The notes beneath the pieces were generated by a model that made no database searches, had not been told where the DNA came from, and was given only the letters and a program-made list of their open reading frames with translations. This document shows, piece by piece, positions 14,301 through 55,180 of a stretch of DNA of 64,000 bases (position 1 is the first letter of the stretch; every line of letters starts with the position of its first letter). The position numbers and the translations under genes are program-made. Location: NCBI GenBank assembly GCA_019096065.1, contig JAGUCH010000008.1, forward strand, positions 6,205,001 to 6,269,000. The letters run 5' to 3'. The DNA is from Paracyclopina nana. Its lineage: Eukaryota; Arthropoda; Copepoda; Cyclopoida; Cyclopettidae.

Positions 14301-17300
14301 TGTACACGCCATTTTCTCACTCAGTTCCTCAGCGAGGAAAAAACCATTAAGGGAGCAAAATTGTTTTGCTTCCAGCCATAAATCAGCTGCACGTACTCAT
14401 TAGGCCGTTCTCATATTGCCGGAAAAAGCTAAGCTAAGGTAAAAATAGCTAAGCAAACGCTCAACATTTCAAGCAAAGTAGCTGCTTTTTGTGAATGTTG
14501 AGCGAAATAACCGGTTTTCGTTGCATAATTTTTACCTTAGCTTAGCTAATTTTACCTTAGCTTAGCTTTTTCCGGCAATATGAGAACGGCCTACTCCTTC
14601 AAAAAAGCACTATGTGAGAAATTGATTGTAATTCAACTTTGTCCTCTTCGACTTGCAGAAATTCAGCCGGTAAATAAGGTCCAACCATGTTACGTTGATT
14701 CACTTCTCCTATAGCTTTTTATACTTAGCTTTGAAACTTTTTTTTCTGAGTTTCTGCTGTGGAAAATAATTTCGCTGTGTCTAATTTTTGTAGTTGCCTT
14801 TTCAGATACAATTAAGTTTACTTATAAATAAAATATCTCTGAAAAAAATGTATTTTTCATAAATATGCATTTGCTTTATAAGTATTTAATTTCATTTGAA
14901 GTATGTATTTTCCTTTAAAATATGTATTTTCCTTGAAAATATGTATTTTCCTTGAAAATATGTATTTTCCTTGAAAATATGTATTTTCCTTGAAAATATG
15001 TATTTTCCTTGAAAATATGTATTTTCCTTGAAAATATGTATTTTCCTTGAAAATATGTATTTTCCTTGAAAATATGTATTTTCCTTGAAAATATGTATTT
15101 TCCTTGAAAAATATGAATTTGTATTTTCCTTGAAAAATATGAATTTGTATTTTCCTTGAGATTATGTATTTTCCTTGAGAGTATGTATTTTATTTTCATC
15201 GCATAAAATAGTTAATTTCTAAAAATGTATTTACAGTATGCAGTACACTCTAACTACTAGCTAAGCACCTTCGTTTAGTTGCTCATATCTTGAGTGCTTT
15301 CTAAAGCCCTTTTTGCTGGCAGTCACCTCACAGTGCTTTTTGCACTTTTTTCGCACACATCAAGGCCGATTTTTGCTGCTCCAGGATAGATCAGAAATGA
15401 AGTGAGAAATTGTGAGCATTTCTCTCAAGGGCAATTTTCTCTATTCATACTTTGCATATTCAAAACACATTTGTCTCTGGGCCTGTCAAAAATATTTTCC
15501 TTCGCAAGATTATGTCTTTTAAAGAAATGTGAGCTGAATCAGCGGAAAAAGGACCACGTGGTCTTTTCTCAGCAATGAGCTCATCAATTTCTGGGCACAA
15601 ATGCTCGCCCGCTCGCAGGTTTTACGAGCGCGCGCCCTCTCAGCAGCGGCCATTGCAAAAAATGTGATTGCAGATCTCCTTCTTCATGTTGATGGATACC
15701 TTGAGAACTAGCTGAGGGTAAAAAGGCGTCGATTTCCCATCTGAAAAAAGGAAATGGTGTTGTAGTACAATGACGCAGTCATTTTCCGGGAATGAGTGCC
15801 CTGAAAGACAAAATACTGAAAATCCTAAGCTTAAAAGTACTTGGGAGCTTTCATTTGAACTAAGAATTTTTGTTTTGAAAGCAGCCAGTTGCTGACATCT
15901 TTGAGGCGCGTTACGGCTGGAACGCTACACTTTTCTGAGTTTTCACCTTATTAAAAAGTGTTATTTGAAGCGTTTGTGCGCCATAAAGCGTTTGTGTGCC
16001 ATATAGCGTTTGTGCACCATGAAGCGTTTGTGCACCATGAAGCGTTTGTGCACCATGAAGCATTTGTGCACCATATAGCGTTTGTGCGCCAAGAAGCGTT
16101 TGTGCGCCATGAAGCGTTTGTGCGCCATGAAGCGTTTGTGCGCCATGAAGCGTTTGTGCGCCATGAAGCGTTTGTGCGCCATGAAGCGTTTGTGCGCCAT
16201 GAAGCGTTTGTGCGCCATGAAGCGTTTGTGCGCCATGAAGCGTTTGTGCGCCAAGAAGCGTTTGTGCGCCACGAAGCGTTTGTGCGCCATGAAGCGTTTG
16301 TGCGCCATGAAGCGTTTGTGCGCCAAGAAGCGTTTGTGTGCCATGAAGCGTTTGTGCGCCATGAAGCGTTAGTGCGCCAAAAAGTGTTTGTGCGCTATGA
16401 AGCGTTTGTGTGCCATGAAGCGTTTGTGCGCCAAGAAGCGTTTGTGCGCCATGAAGCGTTTGTGCGCCATGAAGCGTTTGTGCGCCATGAAGCGTTTGTG
16501 CGCCATGAAGCGTTAGTGCGCCAAAAAGTGTTTGTGCGCTATGAAGCATTTGTTAGCCATGAAGCGTTTGTGCGCCATTAAGCGTTTGTGCGTCGTGAAG
16601 CGTTTGTGCGCCGCTAAGAGTTTGTGCGCCATAAAGCGTTTGTGAGCCGTTTAGTGATTGTGCGCCTTAAAGCCAACGTGTGCCGTAAAACGTTCAGTAA
16701 TACAAAGCCTGCGCTTTGTACCTTTAACTTGAAGCATAAAGAAGTGTTCCACATTTCTGCATCATACTGAGTCTATTAGCTTAATTGAAGTAATTTTACA
16801 ATATGGAATAACATCAGGGTTTAGCTATCCTAGTTGGAGATTTGCTCCTTTTCAGTTTTCCTCTTCATTCATTGATGAGCAAAAAATGGAGTAAATCAAG
16901 GATTTTCCTTTTGTGCGTGATGCAATGCATGGTGGTAGTAGTACTTTTTTGCTGAAAAAATGTGCGAAGCAAAAGAGAAGAAAGAATCGTGGGAAAATGC
17001 TGCATTTTATAGGCCTTTCTCCTCGAGCTTCAGCTGATGATAGTATGATTGAATTTCTCTCTCCTTCCAGATTTCCAGCAGATGGGGCTCAAACCGGAAT
17101 GAGCAAGGATCCAAGCTCAATTTAACTAATACGCAAAGAACTGACAGTGGCCAATACTCTTGCATTGCCACCAACCATGTGGGACAACCCGCCTCAGCTC
17201 AGATCACTTTACGGGTTCAATGTACGTTATTTTTTTGGCTAAAATTGAGACCCTCCCATTGGATTATTCAAATATTTTTTGTGAAAAAGTCCATCAAGCG

Positions 17301-22174: not shown

Positions 22175-23348
22175 AAAGGGCGGCAAAATTCAAATCTATT
22201 ACTTACACCACTAAAACAAATGGAACTTTTAGGCAATTTTTGGTTCCTTTCCCGCTGAACGGCTGTGCTACTCCTCGGATCGGGAAAGAGTTGATCATTG
22301 TTTGCGCATTTTCTAGCCTGAAAAATGCATCCTGGTTTTCAGTTCTCTCAAATAAGGACAGTTTACGACTGTGTACGAGTAGTAAAGGACTAATAAATGT
22401 CTTATTTTGATACAACTATTATGCCAGAGTGCCACATTTTATCTTTGTAGCCGAAAATGCGGCGATGCAGTGAAAGGGGAAAAAATTGGAAAATATAATA
22501 ATCTTCATACAACTTTTTTTGGCCAAATGCAGATAATCAATTGAGCGCACGCTGTTGAGCGAGTCTTTGCCGAGTTAATGAGGCAAGTGAAAGTCTGTAA
22601 AAAGATGTTGGTACATTTGCAAATGTGTATGTCCCATTCTCTTATTTTTGGCAGTGCTAATCCTCATCAAATAGATATTGTCAACGATTTATTCATTTGC
22701 ACACAACATGCACAACATGATAAATGAAATCAAAGATAAAATCAATGATATTTCTCTGAAATTATGTAACCGAAGTCAGCTTTCAAATTATCGCGATAAC
22801 AACTAATTTAATTAGGTCTCCAGTTGACGCACTTTTTCAAACTTTTTATTTTTTTAAGCAATGTGTAGAAGTGAATAAAATCAGTTTTCTTACAAGTGGC
22901 AAGAATTTAGCTCTTTAATTCTGGTTCTACAGCAGCAGAGAATGCTATGAGGGTAAAAGTGATTTTCTAAGTGTGTTATAAGAGAAACATTTTTAAATTG
23001 GTCTGCAGTGCAGTGCAGTGGGTAGAAATTCTTATTTGTCGGTTGAATCTATTCAAGCCTTCTGAAATACTCTAAGTTACAAAGATGTTTCATCTTTGTG
23101 AAAGATGAGTGAATGCTTGAAACAAAATAAGTTAATTTTTAAGCTGAAAAAGTACTCACTCTACCAACGCACATTGGACATCTATTTTAGCTCAGTAATT
23201 GAATTGATGAAACTAATCAGATAAGCCAACTTCAAGGCAATTAGCTCACGGCCTTTGGGCCTAATTTTAAAGCTTGTTTTATTTATTGTTGAAGCATTTC
23301 CTAGTCACATAAAAGAAATTATTGTTGGTCGGACACAATAATACTCTT
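22175..23348. other. 3' region of Ig/FN3 gene and intergenic spacer
   Basis: The first about 240 bases are likely 3' UTR of the Ig/FN3 gene, ending after AATAAA at 22392-22397. The rest has no exon-like frame. A short triplication of TGCAGTG occurs at about 23006-23021. TTTATT at about 23278-23283 is AATAAA on the minus strand and would serve the small gene whose stop codon is at 23349. Confidence 0.45.
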
Positions 23349-23803
23349 TTAGCAATGCCAATCTTGACCAAAGATGCCTCCAATATCAACAATGACTTCA
23401 CAAACACATTCTTTGCAAGGGCTGGCACCATCAATGATATCAAAGATGCAATTGATGACATTGAATGACAGGATACAATCAAAGGCAGCAGCCAAAATGT
23501 CGTCATAGCAAGCTGAACAATCTAAAGGGCCAAAAGCATTATAAAACTAAAGTTTGAAGCCATTATAGTATGGTGAAAATTAGCTTACCAAGCTGGCCCT
23601 CTTTAGGCGCTGGCAATCGCTCAATTGCCAATTTCTTCAAAGCCTCTTGCAACTTTACATTCTTCAACTCGCATGTCTTATTTTGAAAAAGAATGCTTAC
23701 ACCTTACTCTAAGTGAAAACAGAATTAAACTTACTGATTTTGAGACATTAGCAGCTGAGGCTGCAACAAGGAAAACAGCAAAGAGGGAAAAAATTATCTT
23801 CAT
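23349..23803 (-). CDS. Small secreted cysteine-rich protein, copy 1
   Basis: Three exons (23803-23735, 23676-23589, 23521-23349) with GT-AG borders give 109 residues. The N-terminus (MKIIFSLFAVFLVAASAA) is a clear signal peptide. The mature part has a charged helix-like segment (KLQEALKKLAIERLPAPKEG) and a C-terminal domain with eight cysteines: CSACYDD, a DC 12 residues later, INC, then CKECVC and a terminal WHC. Exon phases (0, then 1) and lengths (69, 88, 173 nt) are identical to the neighbour at 24013-24465, so the two arose by tandem duplication. TATATAAGG on the minus strand (23862-23854) is a well-placed TATA box. I do not recognise the family; a secreted, disulfide-stabilised extracellular protein is all that can be inferred. 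Confidence 0.85.
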
Positions 23804-23853
23804 TTTAATGCTAAAGTCCCGCTTTGTTCTGATCCAGCTATTGAGCCAAAGGA

Positions 23854-23862: not shown

Positions 23863-24012
23863 GGCAGGTCTAATCATAGTAAATTTCCTTGATCACTTAT
23901 GTAAATGTCAATTGAGATCAAACATAAAAGTTCATCATAGTAGTACGTTGGGTATAATTGTGTACATATGTATTCAAGTTTGGCGTTTTACAGCGAAAGT
24001 TTGACATTTTGT

Positions 24013-24465
24013 TTAGCAATGCCAATCTTCACCAAAGAGATCTCCAATATCAACAATGACTTCACACACACACTCTTTGCACGGACTGGCACCATCGATG
24101 ATATCGAAAATGCAATCAATGACATTAAATGAAATGATGCAATCAAAGGCGGCAGCCAAAATGTCGTCAAAACAAGTGGAGCAATCTGGCAGAGAAAGCA
24201 GATGCAATCATCAAAATAGCATAGACATTTTATAATCATTATTCTACCTTGTTGGCCTTCTTTGAAGGCTGGCTTACGCTCCAAGGCCAACTTTGTCAAC
24301 GCCTTTTGCAACTTGGCATTCTTCATTTCACATGTCTGATTATGAAAAATTAGAGCTACACAATTGTAGTACAAATGAGAACTTTTGTGAGCTTACTGAT
24401 TTTGGTACACTAGCAGCTGAGGCTGCAATGAGACAAACAGCAAAAAGGGCGAGAATAATTTTCAT
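24013..24465 (-). CDS. Small secreted cysteine-rich protein, copy 2
   Basis: Three exons (24465-24397, 24335-24248, 24185-24013) give 109 residues, with the same exon sizes and phases as copy 1 at 23349-23803. The signal peptide is MKIILALFAVCLIAASAA. The C-terminal domain reads DCSTCFDDILAAAFDC, then VIDC, SPCKECVC and ends EDWHC; it is nearly identical to copy 1, while the middle exon has diverged more (KALTKLALERKPAFKEGQQG against KKLAIERLPAPKEGQL). This suggests stronger constraint on, or gene conversion of, the cysteine domain. A TATAAATG box sits at 24529-24522. No known family was recognised. Confidence 0.85.
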
Positions 24466-24702
24466 TGTTGACCCTTGGAAATTCTTCCCTTCAATACGAT
24501 GCTATGCTTTGCATTTTTTTGCATTTATAGTGCGATTTCTTATCATCATGTGCAGTTTTAAGGTACTTGTGTACTTGCTTTCTTTCGCGTACCTCGTGGT
24601 ACTTTATTAAAATAAATTCTTTGTTTGGGTGGAGCTTTGATGCGATGACGCAGTTTCATTATTTATCCAAAGTCTAAGGTCACACACTGAATTCAAACAT
24701 GT

Positions 24703-38641: not shown

Positions 38642-41600
38642 TTTGGCGAGATTTTTCAATTTTGGGCGTTGCTGTTGTTGCACTGCACAGGTTCTTGAGT
38701 GTAATAACGAAAATCCAGGCAAGTCAGCTAGGGCTCCAAAAAGTAGGAGTGCCTGACTCACGCACGTTTATAACAACAGGTAGGAAATTCCAGGCGCGCC
38801 AATTTTGCATCTACTGCCATTCTGACGGTTTGCATTGTCTTTTGGTTATGTTGCCTGCCTAGTCATGCCTGTATTCTAGCCTGGTTAATGATCATTTAGA
38901 TACTCTCAGTTAGAGCCTGATTTTTGCGTAGAAGATTTTTATTGGCAAAATTACCCTTTTAATATTAATCAAAACTTATCAGAATATGTCTTTACTAAAA
39001 ACATATAGCTTTCAGAGATTTTCATTCATTCATTTTTATTTATTTTTTTGGAGAGGACATTCAGAACTAAAGAATGGAAAAAAAGATGTGATTTCATGCA
39101 ATGATTCAAATAATTATACGGTATGGCAGTATAAGTAATTTCTGTTGATCTTACTTCAGAATGTGGCCAGCAAATCCTTAGCTGGCAAAATATTGGCTGG
39201 ATGTGATGATGGTCCTGACTTTTCAAGCATAGCAATGAACTTGGTGGTCAAAGACGAGGAGGAATTTTAACGGAATTTCCGATTTTTATTGCAAACGGTC
39301 AAACAGTCATAAAAAGATCCAGCATGTCCTCATTCCTAAGCGTAGATGTTAGTGAAACGCCCCGCTTTATTATAGCGCTGCTCTCCATAAGAAATAGATG
39401 ATGATTCACTCGCCGCCAAAGTTCGGGAAATAATTCTTTCAATGTGACGCATGTTGCGTTTTCCGCGAAAAATGCGTCAAAACACTGAGTCATACTTACT
39501 AAAAATTAAAATTAACAATTTAAGAGAAGTGAAATCCGAATATACTGATAAGACTTTGCAGCTTTTAGCTTGAATTGACGTAAAAAGAGGTTGAGTGACT
39601 CTGAATTGAAATGTTCCACAATAAAGTAAAAAGTGGAAAATTAATTTGAGCTAAGGGATCTTCAAAGCGGAGCGTGTGAATAGTTTTTAAGTTTCTCTGC
39701 TTAAATGTATATGTAATGCATTCTATTTATTTGACTTGAGATGTTCGAAGACAAAAATAGGCAGTATCCAAAAAGGAGAGAAATACCGAATGTTGGATAC
39801 ATTTGTGTTTCCTATTGATTCTGTGCTTGAGTACATTGGTATGCATAGATGAGCATTCCATAAGAAAAAGGATGCAATGAGAAATGCATAACAAAACAAT
39901 GGTTTTGCAATATCATTTCTACCGCTCTAACTGGTATTGCTAGAAAAAAGACTAATATCAGAACTTTGAAATAGCACACAATTTTTCTTTTTTAAAATAG
40001 TCCATAATGATAAGGGGAATTACTTAGGTAATATTTTATTCAGTGCATCCTTTTCAGCCTAAATTCTGAATTAGAAATTGGCATTCAGGGGAGAAGTAGG
40101 CCTTTTTTCTTCCTATTCCTCAATAATGTGAATAGAATTCCATATTGCAACTACATGTAGAGAAGTTTACGCTTAGAAGAGAATAAATGGCAAAAACTTT
40201 TTGCACTACCAACTTCTTCAAAAGGTAGCTAAAGTTTTCACTTCTATTGACATATTTCATCAATGTGCAATGTTGCTAAAAAAAGATAGGTAAGCATGGC
40301 ATTTTGCATGACCTAGATGATTTTATGTAGTACTGTTTTGGCCTTCAATGTCACTTTAGTGGAGCATAACATCAAGAGAGGATGAGATGCTTGTTGTTCT
40401 GAACCCAAGCAGAAACACATTTGCATCTTTATCCCTTGATTATCGTCCATTTTCCACCATGTAGTACAAAATCCTTTTTATAAGCACCAATAAGTCATGT
40501 GAGCAGCTCAGTCTACGCTCAGCTCTGCTGAATGATTTCGTAAAATGCAACTGTATGATTTTCTGTACTTTTTCGAGATTTCTTAGCAACTTTTTGCTTG
40601 CTGTGCAGTTTTGATCTTTTGGCTTTCAATGGAATTTCATTATATGCCTTGTATCAATAGATTTTTTTGGTTGACTAACCCACAATGCGAACTCACCTAG
40701 TTTTTCAGCATGATGAAAATTCATGTCATTGCTGTGGTTTTGAAATGCCATAATTAGAATATTCAGATGAGATAATGGCCGATTTGAAAGTGGAATTGTC
40801 CCATTGCAATAAAGGATCTGTCACCGCAAGAAACCCATTTATTTCCCTTTTATGTCTCTTTTTATGTCGAGTTTCCTCAGCCATAAACAAAAGGAGTCTA
40901 AGTTTTTATCGTGAATAGGTTATTCCATTTAGGAAATCTACCATGAAATGAATGCATGCTGAATCGAATCCCTAGTTCATCTTCGGGGTTGGGCAATCGA
41001 AAAAATGCCAATGAGAAAGGTAGAAAATGAAATTCCAATTTTAGCCCGAAGAGCAATTCTGCACTGCAAGCAAAAAAACTTTGGAAAATGTTGACAGAAT
41101 ACAAAAAGACGTCAAATGAACTCTGTTGTTCGCATGATTATTGCATTTGGCTCCACTACTCAAAATCTCAATTCTCACAAGCACAATTATTGCCTTTATT
41201 ATTCTGATCATTAGCGCATTTCAGCAAAAGAATTATGAATTGTCACTTGGCACGACATTGTGCTACATTTTTTAGGGTCACCCTGTATAGTGAACAAACT
41301 CAATAATTGATGTCAATTGCTCTCAATTGCTTTGTTTTTGTTCTGATAAAGCACAACTTATTGAGTCGTGCTATATTCCTGGAAAAAATATTGAGCAGGT
41401 CTCCTTCTTCCTCCTTGGATCTTGGGTGTTTTGGTGCCAGTGCAGCGTGAGACTTGGAAGAAGAGGAGCGCTTCTTCTTTCGCTCTGTGGTGGCTCAGTC
41501 TCACTTGAGCTTCCATCACAAAGAGAAATCGGCACAATTTTGACACCACAATGTAAGTCAAGTCGTTTTACAGCGCTTTCCTTATCCTCAATAACATTTC

Positions 41601-44600: not shown

Positions 44601-47390
44601 GAGTCCCCTCATGGATACAGAAGTAAATTCTTGCCAGAGGTGAGAGATACAACATAGAATAAAGGTTATTTTATTCTAAAAAATAGAGGTTTTTTGTAAG
44701 CAGATGAACATCACATTTTCTGTAGAGGAAAAAGTGACGAGCTCTCAAATATTGAAGAAGAGAGAGAAGTGAGAGCAGCTTTATCAAAAGTTTCAGCACA
44801 AAGTTCTAGTATGATGGACCCCAAATCCCATTTTTTTAAAGTATTCAAAAATAAGCCTAATGCTATACTTTTTTCTATTTCAAAGCATATTTTTTAATAT
44901 CTAGTTAATTTCTGATAGACTTTTATTTGACCTTGCTCAGAAAGTCTAGTTGAAAAGCTGCAAGTTGCACAGTGGGAAAAACTGATTTTTTTTTTAGTAT
45001 AAATGGCTACCTTCTTAACCCACTGTGTACACTTGAGAGGATCCAGCTTTTTCTCACACCTCCTTTTTGCAAGGCTAGCTAATCCTTCAGGATGAAAAAA
45101 GTGGATGAACCTCCTTGATGATGTTAATTACAGAGAAACTTCCTCATTAGCTGAGCAGCATTTTAGAAAGCAGATTCCTGTTTTTCATTTACAATTCCAC
45201 AGCTTTTATTTGACCCAAGCTGAATTAGTATCACTGAAAAATACCTAGAGTTAGTTATATATGTATTATAGACTTTGTGGACTATTTTTCAAAAAATAAA
45301 CATCTGGTAATGTTAGTTCAACTGTCTATTCTTTTCAGAGTGACAAAGAAATGGAATTTACCAGCCAGCATTACTTCAAATTTATGCTTGTGAGACACCC
45401 AATGGAACGGTTGGTCTCATGCTACTATGACAAGATGGTGAATGGAACTCACAAAAGCCTGAAAGGTTTCAGAAAAAATGTCAAGATGAGAGCTGCCATC
45501 ATAAGAAAGCAACGGGAAGGGAGAAATAGGGGTCAAATCACACCCAGAGGAGTCTATGACCCATTGTATTTTGAGCAAAAGGCCAAAACAAAGGCCAAGA
45601 GGTCGATTGTGGCCCACACCACCTTTTCTACAAGTAAAACTGAAGAAATTGGAAGGATGACTGAGGAAGCTTCAGTTATTCCAACACTAGATGACTTTTT
45701 GGAGTTTGTCCTCACTGATTTATCAGGTATTTGCCCTATTACTCTGTCTCAGCATTTTTCATCAATAATCCTTCTGATCATCTTTAGTCAGTGATCAGGC
45801 CTAGACTACAGTCTAAGCACCTTGTCTCATTTTGTCTCAGTAACCTGCCTCAATACAACATCTGCCTCATGTCTTAGTCTCATCATGTTCCAGGTCTCTC
45901 AAGTTTTCACAAGTCTCATTATGCTGTCTCAGTGTCTTTCTCAGCACTTAGAATCCGTAATCTGTCTCAGCAACTGAACAGAGGTCTCACTTAACTTGTG
46001 ATAGATGCTGCATTTCTTGATTTTACTCATTAGGTGGATTCCACAACATTAGGCAGCTAAGCTTAAGCAAAAGCAAAGTAACTTAGATTGCGAATTTCTC
46101 AGCAACCTCTCAACTGATTCGAACCAAAATTGGTAGGATTCATCAGAGTTGCCTTATAATTGTTCATGCCTAATTCAGTCCAAATCCGAGGTCACATTCA
46201 AAAGATTGGTTTTAAGCAAAGCAAAGCTGGGTTAAGCAAAGGGAAATTGGGTACCACTTAGCAGCCTCGGATTTGCACTAAATTTGACAACAACAATTAT
46301 AAGGCAACTCTGATGAATCCTACCAATTTTGGTTCGAATCAGCTGAGAAGTTGCTGAGAAATATGCAATCAAAGTTACCTTGCTTTGCTTAAGCTTAGCT
46401 GCCTAATGTTGTGGGATCCACCTATAGGGTACTGGAAATCGGCCCATATTTCGCCCAGCGGTCAGCGCGTAGATTCTCAGATGGCTGAAAGCTGCCTGCG
46501 TGTGCCATCTCAGATGGCAAAATGCATAGTTCTGCCTTAATTTATTTAGAAAAGGGGCATTTTTTCAAGCCCAATTTACTTATGGCACTAAAAAAATACG
46601 ATTTGGTTATAATCTTACCATTTTGCAAGATCTTGTTTGCTAAATAATCAACTTTTTTGCCAACTTTAAGGCTGGCGTTTGGGCTGGCTTTTGGGCCTGC
46701 TTGTGCATCAATTAAAAGTGCTACTAGATCAGCCTACGCAATAAAAGTGGCTACTTTAATTTATTCAGCTGGCTCTTTATGGCTTTTATTGAGATCAAAT
46801 TCTGGTAACGACTCCGATCCAAAATGGCCAATGGGTCATCTGCGATCACGCGAACATGACGTCAAGCCATCTGAATTTAACGCCATCTAGTGCACAGTGC
46901 TTTGCTCCGAGTCCCTATTGTCAAAAGTATTACATCTTGGAACTATAGAGGAACAATTTCAGCCTGTAACTCACTCAACCTCATTTTTTAAGGCGAAGGC
47001 TTCTCATCACATTGGGTCCCATATTGGAGAATGTGCACACCTTGCCACTTTAAGTATGACATGATTGGAAAGCTGGAAACTGGCTTTGATGACTTCACAG
47101 TAAGTAGCAAGCATTGAAATTCGACACAAAGCTTTTTTTTGGTTCAATTTCAGTTTTTGTGGAAGAAGACTCAATTGGACAACAAGGCACCCATTCCTTG
47201 GTACCATGCTGGTCTCAGTAAAGTTCAAGCTGAAGAGAAACACCTGTCAGACATGAAGTCTTTCTACTCCAAAGTCCCAAAAGACACTTTACTGAGGGTG
47301 TACCAAGCTTACAAGCTGGATTTTGAGCTGTTTGGCTATGACTTCAATCAGGTTCTTCAGTTAGCTGGGTATGAGCCAATCAAGCTCTGA
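41647..47390 (+). CDS. Golgi carbohydrate sulfotransferase
   Basis: Six exons (41647-41959, 43866-44024, 44455-44639, 45339-45726, 46993-47099, 47154-47390) encode 462 residues. The architecture is type II: a short cytoplasmic tail, one membrane anchor (about residues 20-37) and a Ser/Thr-rich stem. The catalytic domain binds PAPS. The 5'-phosphosulfate loop appears as CLINKVASSSMVRMYL (about 175-190), a variant of the family's VPKVAST/SW type. The 3'-phosphate site is FMLVRHPMERLVSCYYDKM (about 233-252). A CTPCHFKYDMIGKLE segment near the end is typical of the HNK-1/chondroitin sulfotransferase family (CHST8-14). It transfers sulfate to a glycan in the Golgi; the glycan cannot be inferred. 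The start ATG was preferred over an upstream in-frame TTG. Intron 5 contains a 390-bp foldback element. AATAAA is at 47446-47451. Confidence 0.93.
46033..46422. mobile_element. Long foldback MITE, 390 bp, TA target duplication
   Basis: The whole element is a near-perfect inverted repeat: GGTGGATTCCACAACATTAG at the left is mirrored by CTAATGTTGTGGGATCCACC at the right, and the arms extend well over 100 bases. TA flanks both ends (46031-46032 and 46423-46424). It lies in intron 5 of the sulfotransferase gene, whose frame is unaffected. Confidence 0.9.
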
Positions 47391-47498: not shown

Positions 47499-48957
47499 CT
47501 ACTTTATTCTCATGCATTTCTCCAGCACTAATAGAAAAGCATATTCAAACAGATCAATGAGAGACATGCACGAATATCCCAGCATGAGCCCCAAGGTTCC
47601 CCCAACTTCTCCAATGAAGCTTTGGTCATCATGGGTGTAGCTGTCGACAATTGTCTGAACTGTATTTGTCACATGCCTCAGCACAAATCTCGATACCTTC
47701 CGCTTAGTCAAGTCAGTCATGCCTTGAGTGGATTCAGTGGCATCGTGAAAGCTTCGCCAACATCTCAGTAACTTGGGGCAAGCATCAAATTCCTGGTAAT
47801 CTTTCAATATCCGGTCCCATTCGGATGCATATTGGCCAATTGTGAAATTATTTGTCGCATTTGAGATTGGGCAAGGTTGAACATCTAGGATTGTCATGTT
47901 GGGTCTCAAGGGTTGGTTCATCCATGGCAATGCACAACCAAACTTTTTCACAAAGATTTTCTCATGCTAAAAGTTAATTGGGTTATATTGTATGATACTT
48001 AACATCTGTATTCTCTCAAGTTGAGTGGATTTTTTGTTTATACCTGTAACAGTTCGCAGTATTTCAGATTGTACCCTTCAATATCAGCACATGGAGCCTC
48101 TTCACTAGGGATTGCCTTCAAAACTTGCTTTTTGACCCTCACTGTCACTTCATTCCCAATATCTATTGTGTAAGGCTGGGAAGTTAAGGCTTCAATTCGA
48201 TCTTGGGGGAATTCATGAATGGCTGCTATGAATTTTGTGCTTTTGTTAGTCTCATAAAAGTAATTCATGAACTCGATCATTAAATCTTCCAAAGCAAACA
48301 TATTTTTAGTAAAATATGAAAAGTCTACACTAAAGCACTGTCCATACTGCTTCATATAGAAGCCATAAAATATTTCATTTGCCTTTGCCTTAAATATTAC
48401 TGAAAGGCGTGAAGTCAAGTAGGGAGGGAAATTGAAATTGTGAATTCCAATCTTGAAGGTGTCATTGTTCAACGCAAATGTCAATTCATCCACAGATGTG
48501 AAGGGATTTCTGAGAAAAATCTTAAGTATTTTCCAGAATTCCGCAGCATGAATTAAACTTATTACTTTTTGTGGTGAAAGCAGTAGTTCAAAACATAGTT
48601 CCAATTTTTTGGTTCAGCTAAATCAAATAATAAAGCACCGGGGTAATGACATCTCGGTTGAACTTGAGGAGCTCTATACAAATCTTGAAAATGTTTGCGG
48701 CACACAGATATGACAGGGTAAGATAAATTCCCCATATTGTCATCCCCATTTCGAAAAGTCACTGAGCTACCAATGGGTTTGTTCTCCAGCTTATAAATAG
48801 CCTGCATAAGTTAAATTGTTTTTTTAGCCTTTTACTATTTTTATTTGTCTTTTTTTACCTTTAGGCTCCATGATGCAAAAATAACCAAGCACACCGTCAT
48901 TCCAGTGGCCCGCAAAGTGGCCAAAAAGAATTGGGCATAAACCTTCACAGTCTTCAT
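47499..48957 (-). CDS. DEG/ENaC (pickpocket-type) sodium channel subunit
   Basis: Four exons (48957-48859, 48801-48566, 48509-48044, 47966-47499) with introns of 57, 56 and 77 bp encode 422 residues. Membrane segment 1 lies near residues 15-36, followed by the conserved SYPVISVC box (the family's FPAVTIC). The extracellular region has many cysteines. Membrane segment 2 contains the family signature IGEVGGTLGLMLGYSCMSL, with a G-x-S selectivity filter (GYS). These channels are trimeric, amiloride-sensitive and often mechano- or ligand-gated. The 56-bp intron was chosen because it repairs an apparent frame break at an A-run (CAC CAC AAA AA|GTAATA ... TTTTTCTCAG|A AAT). Odd points: the N-terminus is short and lacks the His-Gly gating motif, so a further 5' exon may exist. 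The gene ends tail to tail with the sulfotransferase. Confidence 0.88.
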
Positions 48958-49740
48958 GTCCTTTATACCAATTTGTTCGAGGCTAACTAGATATACCACA
49001 AAAAGTGGTTTGTCTGGAGCTCTCAATCACTCTTAATGGATCATTTTGTAAAAGCTTCTATTATTACAGCTGAAAGCCAAATTGCTCCCTTAGCTGAAAG
49101 TTCAAAGAAAATAATAAAATTGGTCCTATTTGTCCATTACTCTAGCTCAAAATGGTCTAATGGTAACATGATTATGTTATTTTGAAACATTGTTCATAAG
49201 TTTCTAAGGTGCATTTTCCTTTGCTTTATGATTTAGTCTGAATTTTGGCTTTTCAAGCATTTCTACTCTATGCAAGTGTTATCTTCTAGTACTATGTTTC
49301 TCTGAGCTTGAGAGATTTTTTTTTAAATATTGGCTGAAGTAGTTTTTGCAAGCGAAAATTTAGTTATTTATTTCTAGCTTGGGCACGTAAAGCGGGGTCA
49401 TTAAATAGCTGAGCGAGGATTTTAAAATGGGAAAACTCAAGTACAACTTTACTAGCCCGAGCCTGCGAGGGCTGTAATTGTACAAGTTTTTTTCCATTTT
49501 AAAATCTGAGGTCAGCTATTTAATGACCCTACTTTACGTGTCCCAGCTCAAAATATACAATTTTATATTCTGTAATATGATTTTTGAGTGTTTTAATGAA
49601 GTTACCGGGCTCCCCCATGCCCTAGAAAATGCTACAAGGTTTTAAGTTGCTATGTGAATATCACTGGCTCTAGTGTGCTAGCATCCTGTTGTCTGGGAGC
49701 AATGGAATACACTTTTATTAAAATCCATTTCTTCAGAGGT

Positions 49741-49810
49741 GTTCCTATGGCACAATGGTTAGAGCACTGGGCTCTTGAGCAAGCCGCACAAGGTTCAAAT
49801 CCCAGTCATT
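49741..49810 (+). ncRNA. tRNA-like segment 1, unit A
   Basis: A box TGGCACAATGG (49748-49758) and B box GGTTCAAATCC (49792-49802) have normal tRNA spacing. The anticodon arm has decayed and the 3' side (CAGTCATTCC) does not pair with the 5' side (GTTCCTA), so this is not a charged tRNA as it stands. TTTTTTT follows at once, a typical RNA polymerase III terminator. Equivalent segments in units B and C are at 50416-50488 and 52014-52086. Confidence 0.65.
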
Positions 49811-49880
49811 CCTTTTTTTCATTTCTTTATCTGGCTAAAGTTATTATAAATTCATATACATAGCATTTAGTTTTCATGAT

Positions 49881-49950
49881 GTTTCCATAGCTCAGTGGAT
49901 AGAGCATTTGAATGCTAATCCAACTGTCTAAGATTCGAATCTAGGATGAT
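49881..49950 (+). ncRNA. tRNA-like segment 2, unit A
   Basis: It begins GTTTCCATAGCTCAGTGG with a canonical A box. The B box is AGATTCGAATCT. The anticodon stem-loop is almost intact (TTTGA-ATGCTAA-TCCAA, loop anticodon GCT), but the 3' end cannot pair with GTTTCCA. A T-run (CTCTCTTTTTTC) follows. It has no detailed similarity to segment 1, so it is not a simple duplication of it. Confidence 0.65.
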
Positions 49951-50415
49951 CCTCTCTTTTTTCAAACTTCTTTGGAATTTGGATTAGTTCCATGGAGTCT
50001 GTGGGGCATTAAATTACTTAAAATCCCTCAAATTTGATTCAAGGGCTGTTAAGTATTTAATATCCCCCAAATTGCTTAGAAAGTACTGTGATATAATAGT
50101 TATTTATTTCGAGCTAGGGCTTGTAAAGTAGGGTCATTAAATAGCTGAGCGAGGATTTTTAAATGGGAAAACTCGAGTACAGCTTTAAAATCCTCGCTCA
50201 GCTATTTAATGACCCTACTTTACGTGCCCCAGCTCAAAATATACAATTTTATATACTGTAATACGATTTTTGAGTGTTTTAATGAAGTTACCGGGCTCCC
50301 CCGTGCCCTAGAAAATGCTGCTCGGTTTTTATGCTATGTATCACTGGCTCTCATCAGCTAGCATCCAGTGGTTTGAGAGCAATAAGAAGACTTTCAAAGT
50401 AGATTTCTTGTGAGT

Positions 50416-50488
50416 TGCACCTATGGCATAGTGGTTAGAGCGCTTGGCTCTTGATTCTGCAGTCTAGGGTTCAAACCCCAGACATACC
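50416..50488 (+). ncRNA. tRNA-like segment 1, unit B
   Basis: A box TGGCATAGTGG (50423-50433) and B box GGTTCAAACCC (50468-50478). The loop CTCTTGA resembles a Lys-type anticodon loop, but its stem pairs poorly and there is no acceptor stem. A run of seven T follows. Confidence 0.65.
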
Positions 50489-50559
50489 TTGTTTTTTTGG
50501 TTTCATTATCTGGCTTAAATTATGTTTAAGTCCTATACATAGCATGCAATTTTCATGGT

Positions 50560-50629
50560 GTTTCCATAGCTCAGTGGTTAGAGTATTGGAATGCGGATCC
50601 AAGTGGCTGAGATTCAAATCTTGGATGAT
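50560..50629 (+). ncRNA. tRNA-like segment 2, unit B
   Basis: A box TAGCTCAGTGG. The anticodon stem TTGGA/TCCAA is a perfect 5-bp match with loop ATGCGGA. The B-box region is GATTCAAATCT. There is no acceptor pairing. CTCTTTTTTCT follows. Confidence 0.65.
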
Positions 50630-50948
50630 TTTCTCTTTTTTCTAACTTCTTTGGAATGTTGATTAGTTCAATGGAATATGTGGGGCATTAAACAACTTAA
50701 AATCCCTCGAATTTGATTCCAGGGCCGTTAAGTATTTTATATGATGGAAAGCAATTTTCGCATGTATAATTCAATTTACCAATTCGTCTCAGTTCATATT
50801 ACTATACATATATAAAAGCTCTGACGTTTAACTTTATCAAGTGACACGCATTATAAAGTATTTTATAAGGTGTGTTGCTCCTCTGTTTGACCAGAGACCA
50901 TGATATTGTCCAAGAAGTAAATCCCATGTTAGAAAAAAGGAGAAAAAA

Positions 50949-51022
50949 TGCCGAGTATGGGGATCAAACCCTGATCATCTAGATTAGGAGTCCAACGCTC
51001 TTCTGACTGAGCTACCAATACA
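50949..51022 (-). ncRNA. Third kind of tRNA-like sequence
   Basis: On the minus strand the order is A box TAGCTCAGTCAG, an anticodon arm TTGGA-CTCCTAA-TCTAG (one wobble; anticodon CCT), and B box GGTTTGATCCC. The acceptor sides GTATTGG and ACTCGGC do not pair well. TTTTTT follows the 3' end. It could be a decayed tRNA-Arg gene or the head of another tRNA-derived SINE. It lies between repeat units B and C. Confidence 0.6.
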
Positions 51023-51330
51023 GACAGAATAATTTTTGTCAGAATTCCTTCTTATTCTTCTTCTCAGCTGAGCTAAGCTTAGTAGAACAGTAGAGCCTTT
51101 TCAGAGGTACCAGACAAAACTTAATCTAACACATCTTTTAGCCCCAAAAAATGCCAAATTCTAAATGCACAATTTTTTAATTGCTTGATTAACGCTTTCT
51201 GTTCCTCTTGCACCACTGAGGGCCTCTCACCCCTCGCCTTCAAGTAATGCATCAGGTGCTAAGTCAAGATCGCCTGGTCTGGTAACCTCATTAACATTTG
51301 CACATTACTTTCCATCATATAAAATCGTAT

Positions 51331-51512
51331 ATATATGTAAACAAATTATAAAACAGGCTTACAAAACATCTGAGCTCATTTTGCAAAGTAAAAATCTCGT
51401 AGCATTACTTGGCTCTCGCAAGCTCGAGCCCACAAAGTTGCCACTCGATTTTTACTTTACAAAATTTGCTCAGCTATTTTATTAGCTTGTTTTATAAATT
51501 GTTTACATATAT
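51331..51512. mobile_element. Foldback element, 182 bp
   Basis: The ends ATATATGTAAACAAATTATA and its near inverse (51488-51512) are joined by arms that stay similar almost to the centre (CTGAGCTCATTTTGCAAAG against its inverse CTTTACAAAATTTGCTCAG). The layout recalls the hairpins inside units A-C, and GTAAAG/TAGCTGAGC words are shared, so it may be a relative. Confidence 0.75.
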
Positions 51513-52013
51513 AAATAGATATAATATCCCCCCAAATTCCTAAGAAAGAAATGTGGTATAAAAGAGCTGAGTCGGATAGGTAAACTGAATTATAACACGA
51601 GGAAATCGTATTACAGTATATAATTAGTTATTTATAAATATAAATAACTATTATTTCGAGCTGGGGCACGTAAAGTAGGGTCATTAAATAGCTGAGCGAG
51701 GATTTTAAAATGGGAAAACTCGAGTACAGCTTTACTAGCCCGAGCCTGCGAGGGCTGTAATTGTACAAGTGTTTTTCCAATTTAAAATCTGAGGTCAGCT
51801 ATTTAATGACCCTACTTTACGTGCCCCAGCTCGAAATATACAATTTTATATTCTGTAATATGATTTTTGAGTGTTTTAATGAAGTTACCGGGCTCCCCCG
51901 TGCCCTAGAAAATGCTGCTCGGTTTTTATGCTATGTATCACTGGCTCTCATCAGCTAGCATCCAGTGGTTTGAGAGCAATGAAACGGACCTTAAAAAACA
52001 TTTCTTGTGAGTT

Positions 52014-52086
52014 GCACCTATGGCATTGTGGTTAGAGCGCTTAGCTCTTGATTCCGCAGTCTAGGGTTCAAGCCCCAGTCATTCCT
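52014..52086 (+). ncRNA. tRNA-like segment 1, unit C
   Basis: A box TGGCATTGTGG and B box GGTTCAAGCCC. It is nearly identical to the unit B copy, again without an acceptor stem, and a run of seven T follows within 10 bases. Confidence 0.65.
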
Positions 52087-52157
52087 TGATTTTTTTGGTT
52101 TCTTTATCTGGCATAAATTATGTTTATGTCCTATACATAGCATGCAATTTTCATGGT

Positions 52158-52227
52158 GTTTCCATAGCTCAGTGGTTAGAGTGTTGGAATGCTGATCCAA
52201 CTTGCTGAGGTTCTAATCTTGGTTGAT
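52158..52227 (+). ncRNA. tRNA-like segment 2, unit C
   Basis: A box TAGCTCAGTGG. The anticodon arm TTGGA-ATGCTGA-TCCAA is intact (loop anticodon GCT). The B box has decayed (GGTTCTAATCT). There is no acceptor pairing and only a short T-run follows. Confidence 0.6.
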
Positions 52228-52686
52228 TCTCTCTTTGTTCTTACTTCTTTGGTATTTTGATTAGTTGAATGGAATATTAGGTGCATTAAACTACTTAAAT
52301 CCCTCGAATTTGATTCCAGGGCCGTTAAGTATTTAATATCCCCCAAATTGCTTAGAAAGAACTGTGATATAAAAGAGCTGAGTCGGATCGGTAAACTGAA
52401 TTATAACACGAGGAAATCGTATTACAGTATATAAAAGAACTTAATCGGATCGGTCAGTTGAATTATAACACTAGCATTTCACAAGAAATATTTCAGATCT
52501 TGCGGAACAATAGAAAATAATGCACAAAACCTTTCCATATAATCCTCCTCACATTGCCTTTTTTGTTGCATTGCTATGCCTTGAAAGTTTTTTCTAGATT
52601 TCTGTTTAAATAGCCAACGCAACAACCAAGCAATGAAAATTCAAAACCTTTTTTGACAATCTATTATCTGATATGCTCATTTCATA

Positions 52687-52833
52687 ACTATCTGTCTTTA
52701 TTTTCTATGCTTTCTTTGCTTTCCCCGAATTGATGCAAAAGTGAGTGTAATCCATGAATACGAATTCTTTTTTGCACTTTTGCGTCAATTCGGGGAAAGA
52801 AAGGAAAGGCATAGAAAATAAAGATAGGTAGTT
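52687..52833. mobile_element. Foldback element, 147 bp
   Basis: The left arm begins AACTATCTGTCTTTATTTTC and the right arm ends with the inverse GAAAATAAAGATAGGTAGTT. The arms continue through TTTCCCCGAATTGATGCAAA and its near-inverse, leaving a loop of only about 30 bases. It has no coding capacity. Confidence 0.8.
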
Positions 52834-52840
52834 TTTTAAA

Positions 52841-53805
52841 ATAAAATTCCTTTTTGAGCATTATTGAGCTTATCTGGATTCTTGAATTTATTGCCAGTAG
52901 GACTTTCCTGGCATAAAAAGAAGAATTGGATGGATGCCAACTTTGTCCAATCGTAAAAAAGGCCATACCAGCCTCCAAATGAGTATGGCCTTGAAGGACA
53001 CATGTGTACGTGTGGCAAGATAAATAAGTAAAAAAAAGGAGTGACTTCACAATAAAAACAGCAATGGATTCCCAGATTGTGTAATACTGCTATGAGTTGC
53101 TCTAACCCAATCACTTTAGTGCACCTAAACAAACTTTGGCCTTTATGGACTTGAAATCCTTTGTAAAGTTGAATCAAGGCCAAACTCTAACAAAGTTGCC
53201 AACATATTACAAGAGTAATTAGCTTGGGCTCAATATAGCCCAATTTCAGTTCAGCTTTATGGTTTTATCAGTCTTTGTTCAGTTTTGGTCCACAGTGGTC
53301 TTTCATGTTGCGCGCTAATAATTTCATAGTGGCACAAACATTGAGACTGATGCAAAAAAATCCCAAATTGGTGATGTTGGCACAGTGTGTCCATATTTTT
53401 ATGGTTCTAATGGCACCCCCTGTAGGGCAAATTAATACCAACAGAAAAAAAGTGGGCGAGGTCTTCTTCTGAAATATTACGTAAAATTTCAGTTTTGCGC
53501 CTCAACTCACAGAGATAAGAAGACAGGAATGTTTTCCAGTCTTTCCAGAGCTTTCCAAACAATCACACGCCACAAATACAGTCATAAAATAATCACAATA
53601 TCACATGACGCATCGAGCCACTGTGTGCACAATTGAGCTTGCCAAAAAAAGTCACTTGGATTGCTTCATGCTGAAATTGAACTGAATTGAAAAGTAAGTG
53701 GAATTTTTCTCGATTGTTTTCTCATTCCTCACTTTTCAAACGTTACATGTTGTAGTATGAAGTAAGGAGACCAATATTGATTTGTTTATTAGTCATTGTG
53801 TTGCC
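52841..53805. other. Spacer upstream of the C1q gene
   Basis: Nothing gene-like was recognised on either strand. The minus-strand frames at 52688-53183 partly overlap the 147-bp foldback and have no signal or domain. Confidence 0.4.
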
Positions 53806-55180
53806 ATGGCCAGGGAAGCCGGATTTTTCCTTCTAATTCTGGCTTTTACCATTGGTAAAAGTGCAGCCAAAACTGTGTCAAATAATGTGGATAATTCAGC
53901 ACTAATCGCTGAGAAACTGGGCGAAATTGTTGATGCCCTGCAATTCAGCAATCAAAAGGTAAATATAAAAACCAATTTTTTTGTAGTACAAACCCTAAAA
54001 ACTATTTTTTTTTCATCTACAGAATTTTGACTTTTCCAATTTGCAAACCAATCTCTTCAGCATGCTTAGTGAGCAGGAGACCAGATTTCGTTCCCTGGAG
54101 TCTCGAATTGATGGTAAAAAAGAGCTTTAAAGTGGGTAAAATGTGGGTATAAAAAAAGAGATCTTTTTAGCTGAGTGTCGCCATAAAAAAACTGAGGATT
54201 ATCAAGAGCTAGCGCTGCAACTTCACAACCTGGAAACTCGTTTAAACATGACAATACAAGAGAACATTGACCTTAGGGCAACACTGGATATTATGCAAAC
54301 TGAGAACGTCTTCACTGAAGGTAAAATAGAAAACAATCCCACTTATTCACCAATTCAGTTCAATTTCATTTCAAGGTAATTCAAACGACTTTTTTTGACA
54401 AGCTCATTTCTGCATCAAGTGAATAAATGCGTCATTTATTATTATTTCAAAATGTCGTTTCAGAAACCAATTCAACGTCAAGACAGCCCCGAAACTTCTT
54501 GGCCTTGACGACCTCGAAGGGTCACGGGGTGGCCTTTGATGCCTATCGCAATCAGCCTTTCAGCCTTGAGCAATCCATTGTGACTTACGATGGGACTCTG
54601 ACAAATCTCGGGAATGGTTTGAACATTTCCACTGGGATGTTCACAGCTCCAAAAGGCGGCATTTATGCATTCAATTTTCACGCGTTGACTCGTGATGGAA
54701 GTGCGACTTATGTCAAAATCGTGCACAATGGGCGAAATGTGGGCGGGGCCTACAGAAGACATGAAGAAGGACAAGACCAACTCAGTGCTAGCAAAAGGGT
54801 ATTAAAAAAACACACTTTTCCCGTTTTTTCCATGCATGAAGCTGAAAATCATGTCGGCACTTGCATTTTTCCAGCTGCCATTTTTTGATGGGTCCATGCC
54901 AAAAAAGCCCATTTTTCTTGGGAAAAAAGTATGAAAAGTAGATGTTGGGAAGTTAGTTCATTGTGTAGTAGAAATACTATAGTTTTGCTCAGTAATGAAA
55001 TTGTATTCAAATATTATAATTTTTAAGGATGGTGGAGTCAAAAGGGCTGAAGGAATGCTTGCCCAATCTGTGGTCTTGCAAGTGGAAAAGGATGACCAAG
55101 TGGGAGTTTTTGCATACCACGGAAATATCAGGGATGGAGGATGGCATTACACTCATTTCACAGGATATTTGCTCTTCTAA
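53806..55180 (+). CDS. Secreted C1q-domain protein without collagen
   Basis: Five exons (53806-53958, 54023-54113, 54171-54320, 54464-54798, 55028-55180) encode 293 residues. A signal peptide (FFLLILAFTIGKSAA) is followed by a helical coiled-coil region (about 40-130; LQLHNLETRLNMTIQENIDL). The C-terminal globular C1q domain (about 140-293) has the expected core: VAFDAYRN, the TGMFTAPKGGIYAFNF box, YVKIVHNGR, and the final DDQVGVFAYHG and FTGYLLF strands. There is no Gly-X-Y collagen, so trimerisation is probably driven by the coiled coil. Such proteins act as secreted lectin-like or immune recognition molecules in invertebrates; the ligand is unknown. The start ATG sits in a good context (GCCATGG). 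AATAAA at 55198-55203 lies just after the stop. Confidence 0.95.

Follow-up and report, generated by a model that had tools for sequence, protein, structure and literature searches.

Palindromes or hairpins have been described in several kinds of rolling-circle DNA element. HINEs have a 5' subterminal inverted repeat (subTIR), a 3' subTIR with a palindrome, and a TT target that is left unmodified (PMC4067079, PMC7492417); their palindromes measure 5-10 bp and their subTIRs 11-15 bp, with the subTIR 38-60 bp from the 3' end (PMC4067079). Helitron2 elements carry asymmetric inverted repeats together with hairpins and insert between TTTT and T/C (PMC5148889), and in Helraiser a hairpin close to the 3' end serves as the terminator, and the circles formed are joined exactly head to tail (PMC4778049). 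Here we consider a 64,000-nucleotide stretch of the genome of the copepod Paracyclopina nana (contig JAGUCH010000008.1 of assembly GCA_019096065.1, forward-strand positions 6,205,001 to 6,269,000; hereafter the window, whose own numbering is used below), which holds four copies, called U1, U2, U3 and S, of an element that combines a long palindrome, inverted repeats and tRNA-like segments resembling RNA polymerase III (Pol III) units. The element is real and mobile, and is neither a short interspersed element (SINE) nor a chance nest of unrelated pieces. We consider it slightly more likely than not to be a HINE-like, non-autonomous member of the Helentron/Helitron2 type of rolling-circle DNA elements.

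Three of the copies are joined head to tail, and each of the three has its parts in the order given by a preliminary description of the window: hairpin, link, first tRNA-like segment, T-run, link, second tRNA-like segment and tail. Alignment by blastn gives 84.8% identity between U1 and U3 (736 aligned columns), 85.7% between U2 and U3 (691 columns) and 77.6% between U1 and U2 (706 columns). The single unit length of 736 bp in that description does not survive, since the three copies differ in extent. U1 (49361-50096, minus strand in the proposed rolling-circle polarity) does measure 736 bp, from a 5' end TTATATCACAG at 50096 to a 3' end AAATAACTA at 49361. U2 (50097-51624, minus strand) is split by the 784 bp of S at 50738-51521, and runs from (A)TTATATACTG at 51623/51624 to AAATAACTA at 50097. 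U3 (51625-52434, minus strand) is about 810 bp long and includes a 62-bp 5' block that carries the outer inverted repeat; its 3' end AAATAACTA lies at 51625 and its 5' end TTTTATATACTG, at about 52434-52436, sits behind a partial extra copy of the same block (52429-52474, minus strand, 85% over 46 nt). The 62-bp block is missing from U1, whose first base corresponds to a point about 62 bp into the longer form, where TTATAT occurs again; this could mean that a different start was used or that the block was lost by deletion between short repeats.

The 3' end AAATAACTA is common to all three U copies, and the sequence beyond it is different each time, being host flank in one case, the 5' end of U1 in another and the 5' end of U2 in the third. 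The 5' ends of U1, U2 and S all open with TTATAT, and the head-to-tail junctions read AAATAACTA|TTATAT and AAATAACTA|A|TTATAT. Canonical Helitrons (Helitron1), which insert between A and T, have 5'-TC and 3'-CTRR ends; these are absent here, the element beginning with TTATAT and finishing with AAATA(AC/GA)TA. The family has no coding capacity at its length of about 740-810 bp, and no stop-to-stop open reading frame (ORF) of at least 110 amino acids was found within 48614-52687.

Read against the direction of its tRNA-like segments, the element consists of a terminal inverted repeat, a core, a subterminal inverted repeat, a palindrome and a fixed 3' end; this direction is probably its natural polarity. 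The preliminary description had missed S, the fourth copy, as well as both the inverted repeats and the 3' terminus, and had not recognized this probable polarity. The subterminal repeat of U2 (50247-50289, plus strand) pairs with the terminal repeat of U3 (52394-52436, minus strand) over 43 nt at 84%; the U2 equivalent of the terminal repeat lies at 51583-51623, and the subterminal equivalents in U1 and U3 at about 49561-49603 and 51843-51885. In S, the subterminal repeat (51294-51325, minus strand) pairs with 50734-50765 over 32 nt, also at 84%. The alignment score of the U3 outer against the U2 inner repeat is 41, compared with a maximum of 14 in 1000 simple shuffles, and that of the two S repeats is 24, compared with a maximum of 18 in the same number. 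Both repeats are present in three of the four copies (U2, U3 and S), with U1 lacking the outer one. The inner repeat adjoins the palindrome, within 6 bp, in the U and S lineages alike. A scan of the window for inverted repeats (arms of at least 20 nt, at least 75% matching, less than 2.5 kb apart) listed nine palindromes and 18 distant pairs. Several of the listed pairs are palindrome arms of different units matched to one another, and the pair at 46031-46424 belongs to a palindrome, of which it forms the outer portion. In this list, it is only in the present family that a palindrome has a distinct inverted repeat 6 bp or less away.

The palindrome lies between the inner repeat and the 3' end in all four copies: at 49369-49555 in U1, 50105-50241 in U2, 51652-51838 in U3 and 51330-51513 in S. 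It had been called a perfect hairpin, which overstates the match: the arms, 55-68 nt long with less exact extents to 93 nt, are 84% complementary in U1, 93% in U2 and 91% in U3, the last having 44 consecutive pairs, and U2 has lost its apex. The apex loop GAGCYTGCGA is identical in the other three copies, reading GAGCCTGCGA in U1 and U3 and GAGCTTGCGA on the minus strand of S. As RNA, U3 folds far better than its shuffled versions (z -15.1, 20 shuffles), and the palindromes of U3 and S fold into a similar shape. When the 81 pairs predicted for U3 are transferred to S, 62 pair there (34 unchanged, 8 changed on one side and 20 changed on both), 14 are unpaired and 5 fall at gaps. In an alignment of three sequences, 92.0% of the cells pair and 20 pairs show two-sided changes, values of which neither is reached by any of 500 shuffles; sliding the partner by 1-3 columns lowers them to 29.9-44.9% of cells and 1-5 two-sided pairs. 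A count limited to the 47 pairs common to the U3 and S folds (97.2% of cells, 20 two-sided) was discarded in favour of the 81-pair count, because its pairs are paired by construction.

These counts come from three sequences and a structure taken from U3 alone, and so they show that the palindrome has been kept and do not indicate how; selection, arm replacement or arm-to-arm copying would all do. Copying of one arm from the other is suggested by the U2 palindrome, which has no apex and in which the inner 3' arm agrees with the 5' arm (GCGAGG/CCTCGC) where the sequence of U1 and U3 is different. Against the U2 palindrome, the Rfam model mir-1781 scores 47.6 bits on one strand and 44.4 bits on the other, both short of its cut-off of 68; a microRNA reading was rejected because any long palindrome matches on both strands.

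The fourth copy shows which parts move together. S (50738-51521, plus strand, hence opposite to U1-U3) is a diverged member of the family lying in the tail of U2, with a 5' end (T)TATATGATGG and a 3' end AAATAGATA; it starts with TTATATGATGG, and the sequence beyond its 3' end is different. This 784-bp insert holds a palindrome, its inverted repeats and a single tRNA-like cassette, all in one block. U1 and U3 retain the empty site, GTTAAGTATTTAATATCCCCC, from which the S core and the S palindrome are both absent. S has split this site inside TTT: U2 matches the empty site on the left as far as GTATTT and on the right from TAATATCCCCC, so that at most one T is shared and the target duplication at this one insertion site is no longer than 1 bp. 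The U3 single-sequence model matches S over positions 38-806 (E 4.6e-18), and the S model matches U3 (E 5.2e-20), U1 (E 4.2e-14) and U2 (E 1.4e-05). The signal linking U and S comes mostly from the palindrome and the adjoining repeat, where the U1-U3 profile scores 44.0 bits. S carries palindrome, inverted repeats and a cassette in the same order as U, and they arrived together at one site, which supports the earlier suggestion of a composite non-autonomous element.

The S insertion bears directly on the possibility that the parts are a chance nest, in which a hairpin element and two SINE fragments happen to lie together. S has no recognizable first tRNA-like segment, a scan for promoter boxes found no second pair in it, and the links between parts are not demonstrably alignable between U and S, as such nesting would predict. 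However, palindrome, inverted repeat and cassette stand in the same order in two diverged lineages, and an empty site with neither core nor palindrome is hard to reconcile with independent arrivals; we consider this explanation scarcely credible. Copies with only one tRNA-like part and variable flanks, or separate insertion sites for hairpin and tRNA parts, had been proposed as a sign of chance nesting. The single box pair of S does touch the claim of two cassettes, with the two-cassette form seen only in the U copies, but leaves intact the association of palindrome, inverted repeats and one cassette.

The junctions and the S insertion likewise allow a judgement on the earlier alternative of a satellite, a tandem array spread through extrachromosomal circles or unequal exchange and with no dedicated enzyme. 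The three head-to-tail units agree with a satellite. S does not: it is a single, diverged monomer inserted in the opposite orientation with matching termini, and together with the conserved inverted repeats it points to mobility specific to the element, so that we regard a simple satellite as very improbable.

A more serious competitor is a derivative of a cut-and-paste transposon with terminal inverted repeats (TIRs), that is, a miniature inverted-repeat transposable element (MITE) or foldback element, in which a transposase would bind the terminal repeats, the palindrome would be a subterminal foldback and the tandem copies would have arisen by unequal exchange or slippage. The inverted repeats of about 30-45 nt exceed the subTIRs of HINEs, the U2 palindrome resembles the product of fold-back copying, and the window contains other foldbacks and inverted-repeat pairs, one of which (8778-9211) has a candidate 8-bp target duplication. 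On the other hand, S, the sole testable site, shows no target duplication above 1 bp, and one of the two repeats has the palindrome on its outer side, although the palindrome is co-mobile in both lineages, so that the two extremities of the element do not form an inverted-repeat pair. We therefore think a cut-and-paste origin doubtful, though it deserves to be kept in view.

The tRNA-like segments all have A and B boxes, as originally reported. A scan of both strands of the window with consensus box sequences (A box at least 7/8, B box at least 8/9, spacing 36-61) found eight A/B pairs, of which seven lie inside these elements, all at a spacing of 44: six in the U segments and one in S. The eighth, at 48918 with a spacing of 56, looks like chance. 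In 20 Markov-randomized windows, counted over the whole spacing range of 36-61, there were on average 2.25 pairs and never more than 6. On the plus strand, segment 1 occupies 49741-49813 in U1, 50417-50489 in U2 and 52014-52086 in U3, in each case followed by T7, and segment 2 occupies 49881-49953 in U1, 50560-50632 in U2 and 52158-52230 in U3; the single S segment, equivalent to segment 2 by position, occupies 50949-51021 on the minus strand. The T-run said to follow every segment is indeed found, at T6 or longer, after six of the seven cassettes (T6 after segment 2 in U1 and U2, two T6 runs after the S segment), but is broken in segment 2 of U3, where it reads TTTGTT. By comparison, such a run follows within the next 20 nt at about 4% of the positions in the window.

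The resemblance to tRNA is partial. Rfam scores segment 2 as tRNA at 23.1 bits in U1, 29.5 in U2 and 29.8 in U3 and the S segment at 26.7, which is below the gathering threshold; only the U2 and U3 values, two of the seven segments, exceed it. Segment 1 has no Rfam tRNA match in any unit. It does have sub-threshold minus-strand matches to Plastid-ycf2 (22.8 bits in U2 and 17.9 in U1, with none listed in U3), a model that looks like the reverse complement of a tRNA. At a fixed tRNA register, the seven segments have 1-4 of 7 acceptor pairs, 3-4 of 4 pairs in the D arm and 2-4 of 5 in the T arm, whereas the anticodon arm has 4-5 of 5 pairs in segment 2 and in S, supporting the anticodon arm noted earlier in segment 2, and 3 of 5 in segment 1. 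At that register all seven lack the cloverleaf with acceptor stem of a functional tRNA. The reported lack of acceptor pairing thus stands with one exception: in the Rfam alignment, by one reading of it, S has 6 of 7 acceptor pairs and a shortened T arm. A tRNA gene finder had been recommended as a check; ARAGORN, run with the bacterial code, predicted no tRNAs. A possible H-type pseudoknot (CACTG/CAGTG with GCTCTCA/TGAGAGC) was noticed by eye in a link of U3, at 51936-51979 on the plus strand; it is identical in U2 and degraded in U1.

The paired tRNA-like segments invite a retroelement reading, in which a long interspersed element (LINE) partner would reverse-transcribe Pol III transcripts started at the tRNA-like parts of a composite SINE-like element. 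The constant box spacing of 44 in seven of seven segments and the excess of T-runs would fit such an element. Against this, the mobile block begins with a palindrome or an inverted repeat rather than a tRNA head, and each cassette has its own apparent terminator, so that the RNA would be about 75 nt long and would not include the element as a whole. Furthermore, no A-tail was seen and there is no long target duplication at S. A SINE-like origin is improbable on these grounds, and the judgement that the layout is not that of a standard SINE proves sound, given the missing 5' tRNA head and the presence of inverted repeats. In Culex, the Twin SINE has two tRNA-related parts in the same orientation, which form the head of a retroposon; the tRNA-like parts described here are placed instead in the core of an element that has inverted repeats and a palindrome.

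Taken together, the repeats, palindrome, 3' end, T-run target, lack of duplication at S and junctions match the published layout of rolling-circle elements, and on this basis the hairpin would be an oversized rolling-circle terminator and the tRNA-like parts would be Pol III cassettes carried inside on the opposite strand. In the cycle that we propose, the element would start at TTATAT within its outer inverted repeat (in its own polarity, the minus strand of the window for U1-U3), where a Rep-helicase encoded by a partner element would nick and peel off one strand. The subterminal counterpart of that repeat, with the long palindrome no more than 6 bp beyond it, would signal the end, and cleavage would follow AAATA(AC/GA)TA. 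The displaced strand or circle would then insert in a T-run without target duplication, and missed termination, or insertion of a concatemer or circle, would produce head-to-tail arrays such as U1-U2-U3. The cassettes would be captured Pol III units in the core, on the other strand, and are not taken to be needed for mobility. The common ancestor of U and S probably had one of the cassettes already.

The likeness to HINEs and DINE-1 is considerable: an inverted repeat at one end, a subterminal repeat with a palindrome at the other, and no coding sequence, with tandem copies also recorded for HINEs (PMC4067079, PMC7492417). Their insertion in T-rich sequence, at TT and without target modification, can be compared here with one site, that of S, which lies within TTT and has a duplication of at most 1 bp. 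The asymmetric inverted repeats with hairpins and the T-rich insertion are also features of Helitron2/FoHeli (PMC5148889). Several observations nevertheless weigh against the rolling-circle reading. The palindrome arms of 55-68 nt are about five to ten times larger than the 5-10 bp published for HINEs, the repeats of about 30-45 nt are longer than the published 11-15, and the inner repeat lies about 200 bp from the 3' end, not close to it; the 3' inverted repeat of Helitron2/FoHeli is described at about 20-50 bp from the end. The distance of about 200 bp arises because the palindrome lies between the inner repeat and the end. Because palindrome size and inner-repeat distance fall outside the published ranges, we do not file the element as a HINE, although it would work like one. 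In addition, no 5' hairpin was identified, and no microsatellite or central repeats were seen in the elements. Inner copies in tandem Helitron arrays are said to be often 3'-truncated (PMC7492417), whereas here no inner copy is, and it is U1 that is short, at its 5' end and without the outer repeat. Duplication could be assessed at S alone, in AT-rich sequence that leaves some room for an 8-bp duplication with one mismatch per side.

The connection between U and S is also weaker in places than the whole-element matches imply. The U2 model (U2 taken to 50742) matches S only in two pieces (E 0.009 and 0.018). With the palindrome removed, the U1-U3 profile scores 8.5 bits on the S core (E 0.005), at segment 2; the inner repeat of S without the palindrome scores -0.8 bits, and 300 shuffled cores reach 0.9. 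The excised S cassette was listed against segment 1 alone (5.3 bits, E 0.045). These low scores mean that the links may be non-homologous and that the S cassette is equated with segment 2 mainly by position. U and S thus have landmarks and order in common, and their links are not demonstrably homologous.

Within the U copies, the cassettes are no better conserved than their flanks when U1 is compared with the other units: identities are 71-74% for segment 1, 82-84% for segment 2 and 56-74% for a 27-bp link, compared with 88-89% for the tail, 90-95% for the palindrome arms and 96-100% for the inner repeat. Between U2 and U3, segment 1 is 93% identical, like the rest of the unit. Selection on the Pol III boxes found no support among U1-U3, with 8 of 46 columns variable in the boxes and 29 of 100 outside them (Fisher p 0.16). 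In the absence of any special conservation, passive cargo is the default reading of the cassettes. Their use by the element would be favoured by the spacing of 44 in all seven and the T-runs after six, and they may be transcribed as separate RNAs of about 75 nt. It is nonetheless an unlikely idea, though not a negligible one, that the element uses its cassettes and does not merely carry them, and belongs to a rolling-circle lineage in which functional Pol III cassettes face against the direction of replication and a giant 3' palindrome is under constraint. If that were so, the cassettes might, among other roles, help to open the DNA, bring in TFIIIC or produce tRNA-like RNAs.

Capture of gene fragments is a known property of Helitron-type elements. 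Captured tRNA-like units would distinguish the present element from DINE-1, which is stated to lack tRNA-like sequence (PMC2374699). In Arabidopsis, a tRNA-Cys cluster consists of tRNA genes in short tandem units annotated as Helitron; failed termination was suggested for it, and capture of a non-coding RNA by a Helitron would, by that account, be a first (PMC10701932). In the same report, Helitron programs found no reliable element over those tRNA genes, whereas termini, inverted repeats and an empty site are visible here. A description of a tRNA-carrying Helentron was not found among the open-licence papers searched (PMC6934838 included), an absence that falls short of proof. If borne out, the present case would make such capture directly testable, in an animal element whose ends are clear, whose empty site is visible and whose two diverged lineages both carry tRNA-like Pol III units. 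It would further show that the 3' palindrome of elements of this type may grow beyond 50 nt in each arm without being lost. The case also illustrates how "SINE-like" repeats can be misfiled if their polarity and ends go unchecked.

Relatives outside the window were sought in several ways. Two degenerate motifs retrieved 11 and 14 stretches from viral contigs. The family profile applied to these 25 viral loci gave 21 matches at E of 1 or below, covering the typed motif and its edges over 19-44 profile positions; the best had E 0.0054 (locus L024, 44 profile positions). Since the motif scan had itself selected these matches, they were treated as chance. Two longer patterns had no occurrence in viral contigs, and one of them none in genome contigs either; a distant blastn search of U3 against phages and plasmids gave no match.

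Of ten translated ORFs from the window, eight have Pfam matches, to a nuclear-receptor zinc finger, an iron-hydrogenase-like domain, a Ser/Thr phosphatase, a sulfotransferase, an amiloride-sensitive channel, C1q, tetraspanin and immunoglobulin domains, a set taken to indicate animal nuclear DNA. The inverted-repeat pair mentioned above (8778-8808 with 9181-9211, 31 nt, 94%) is flanked on both sides by GGTAATAG, the candidate 8-bp target duplication. An older third lineage was considered at 8562-8900 (minus strand), where single-copy models gave E 0.78 and 2.9 and the family profile E 0.29 on the opposite strand, a non-significant likeness to the family palindrome; this may be an older relative and was not used. 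A palindrome at 52686-52833, about 250 bp past the end of U3, has no listed match to the family profile. Two further inverted-repeat pairs, 53597-53715 with 54325-54443 (119 nt, 74%) and 40591-40650 with 41017-41076 (60 nt, 78%), are possible transposon ends. A 408-bp palindrome at 46024-46431 has arms of 122 nt at 90% and an outer 48 nt at 92%, and a near-perfect one at 14401-14593 (arms of 54-57 nt, 96-98%) lies about 250 bases from a 19-bp minisatellite (14848-15218). A direct repeat of about 460 bp joins 23348-23804 and 24012-24466 at 74% identity, and a second minisatellite, at 15966-16694, has an 18-bp period in about 39 copies and is open in several frames on both strands.

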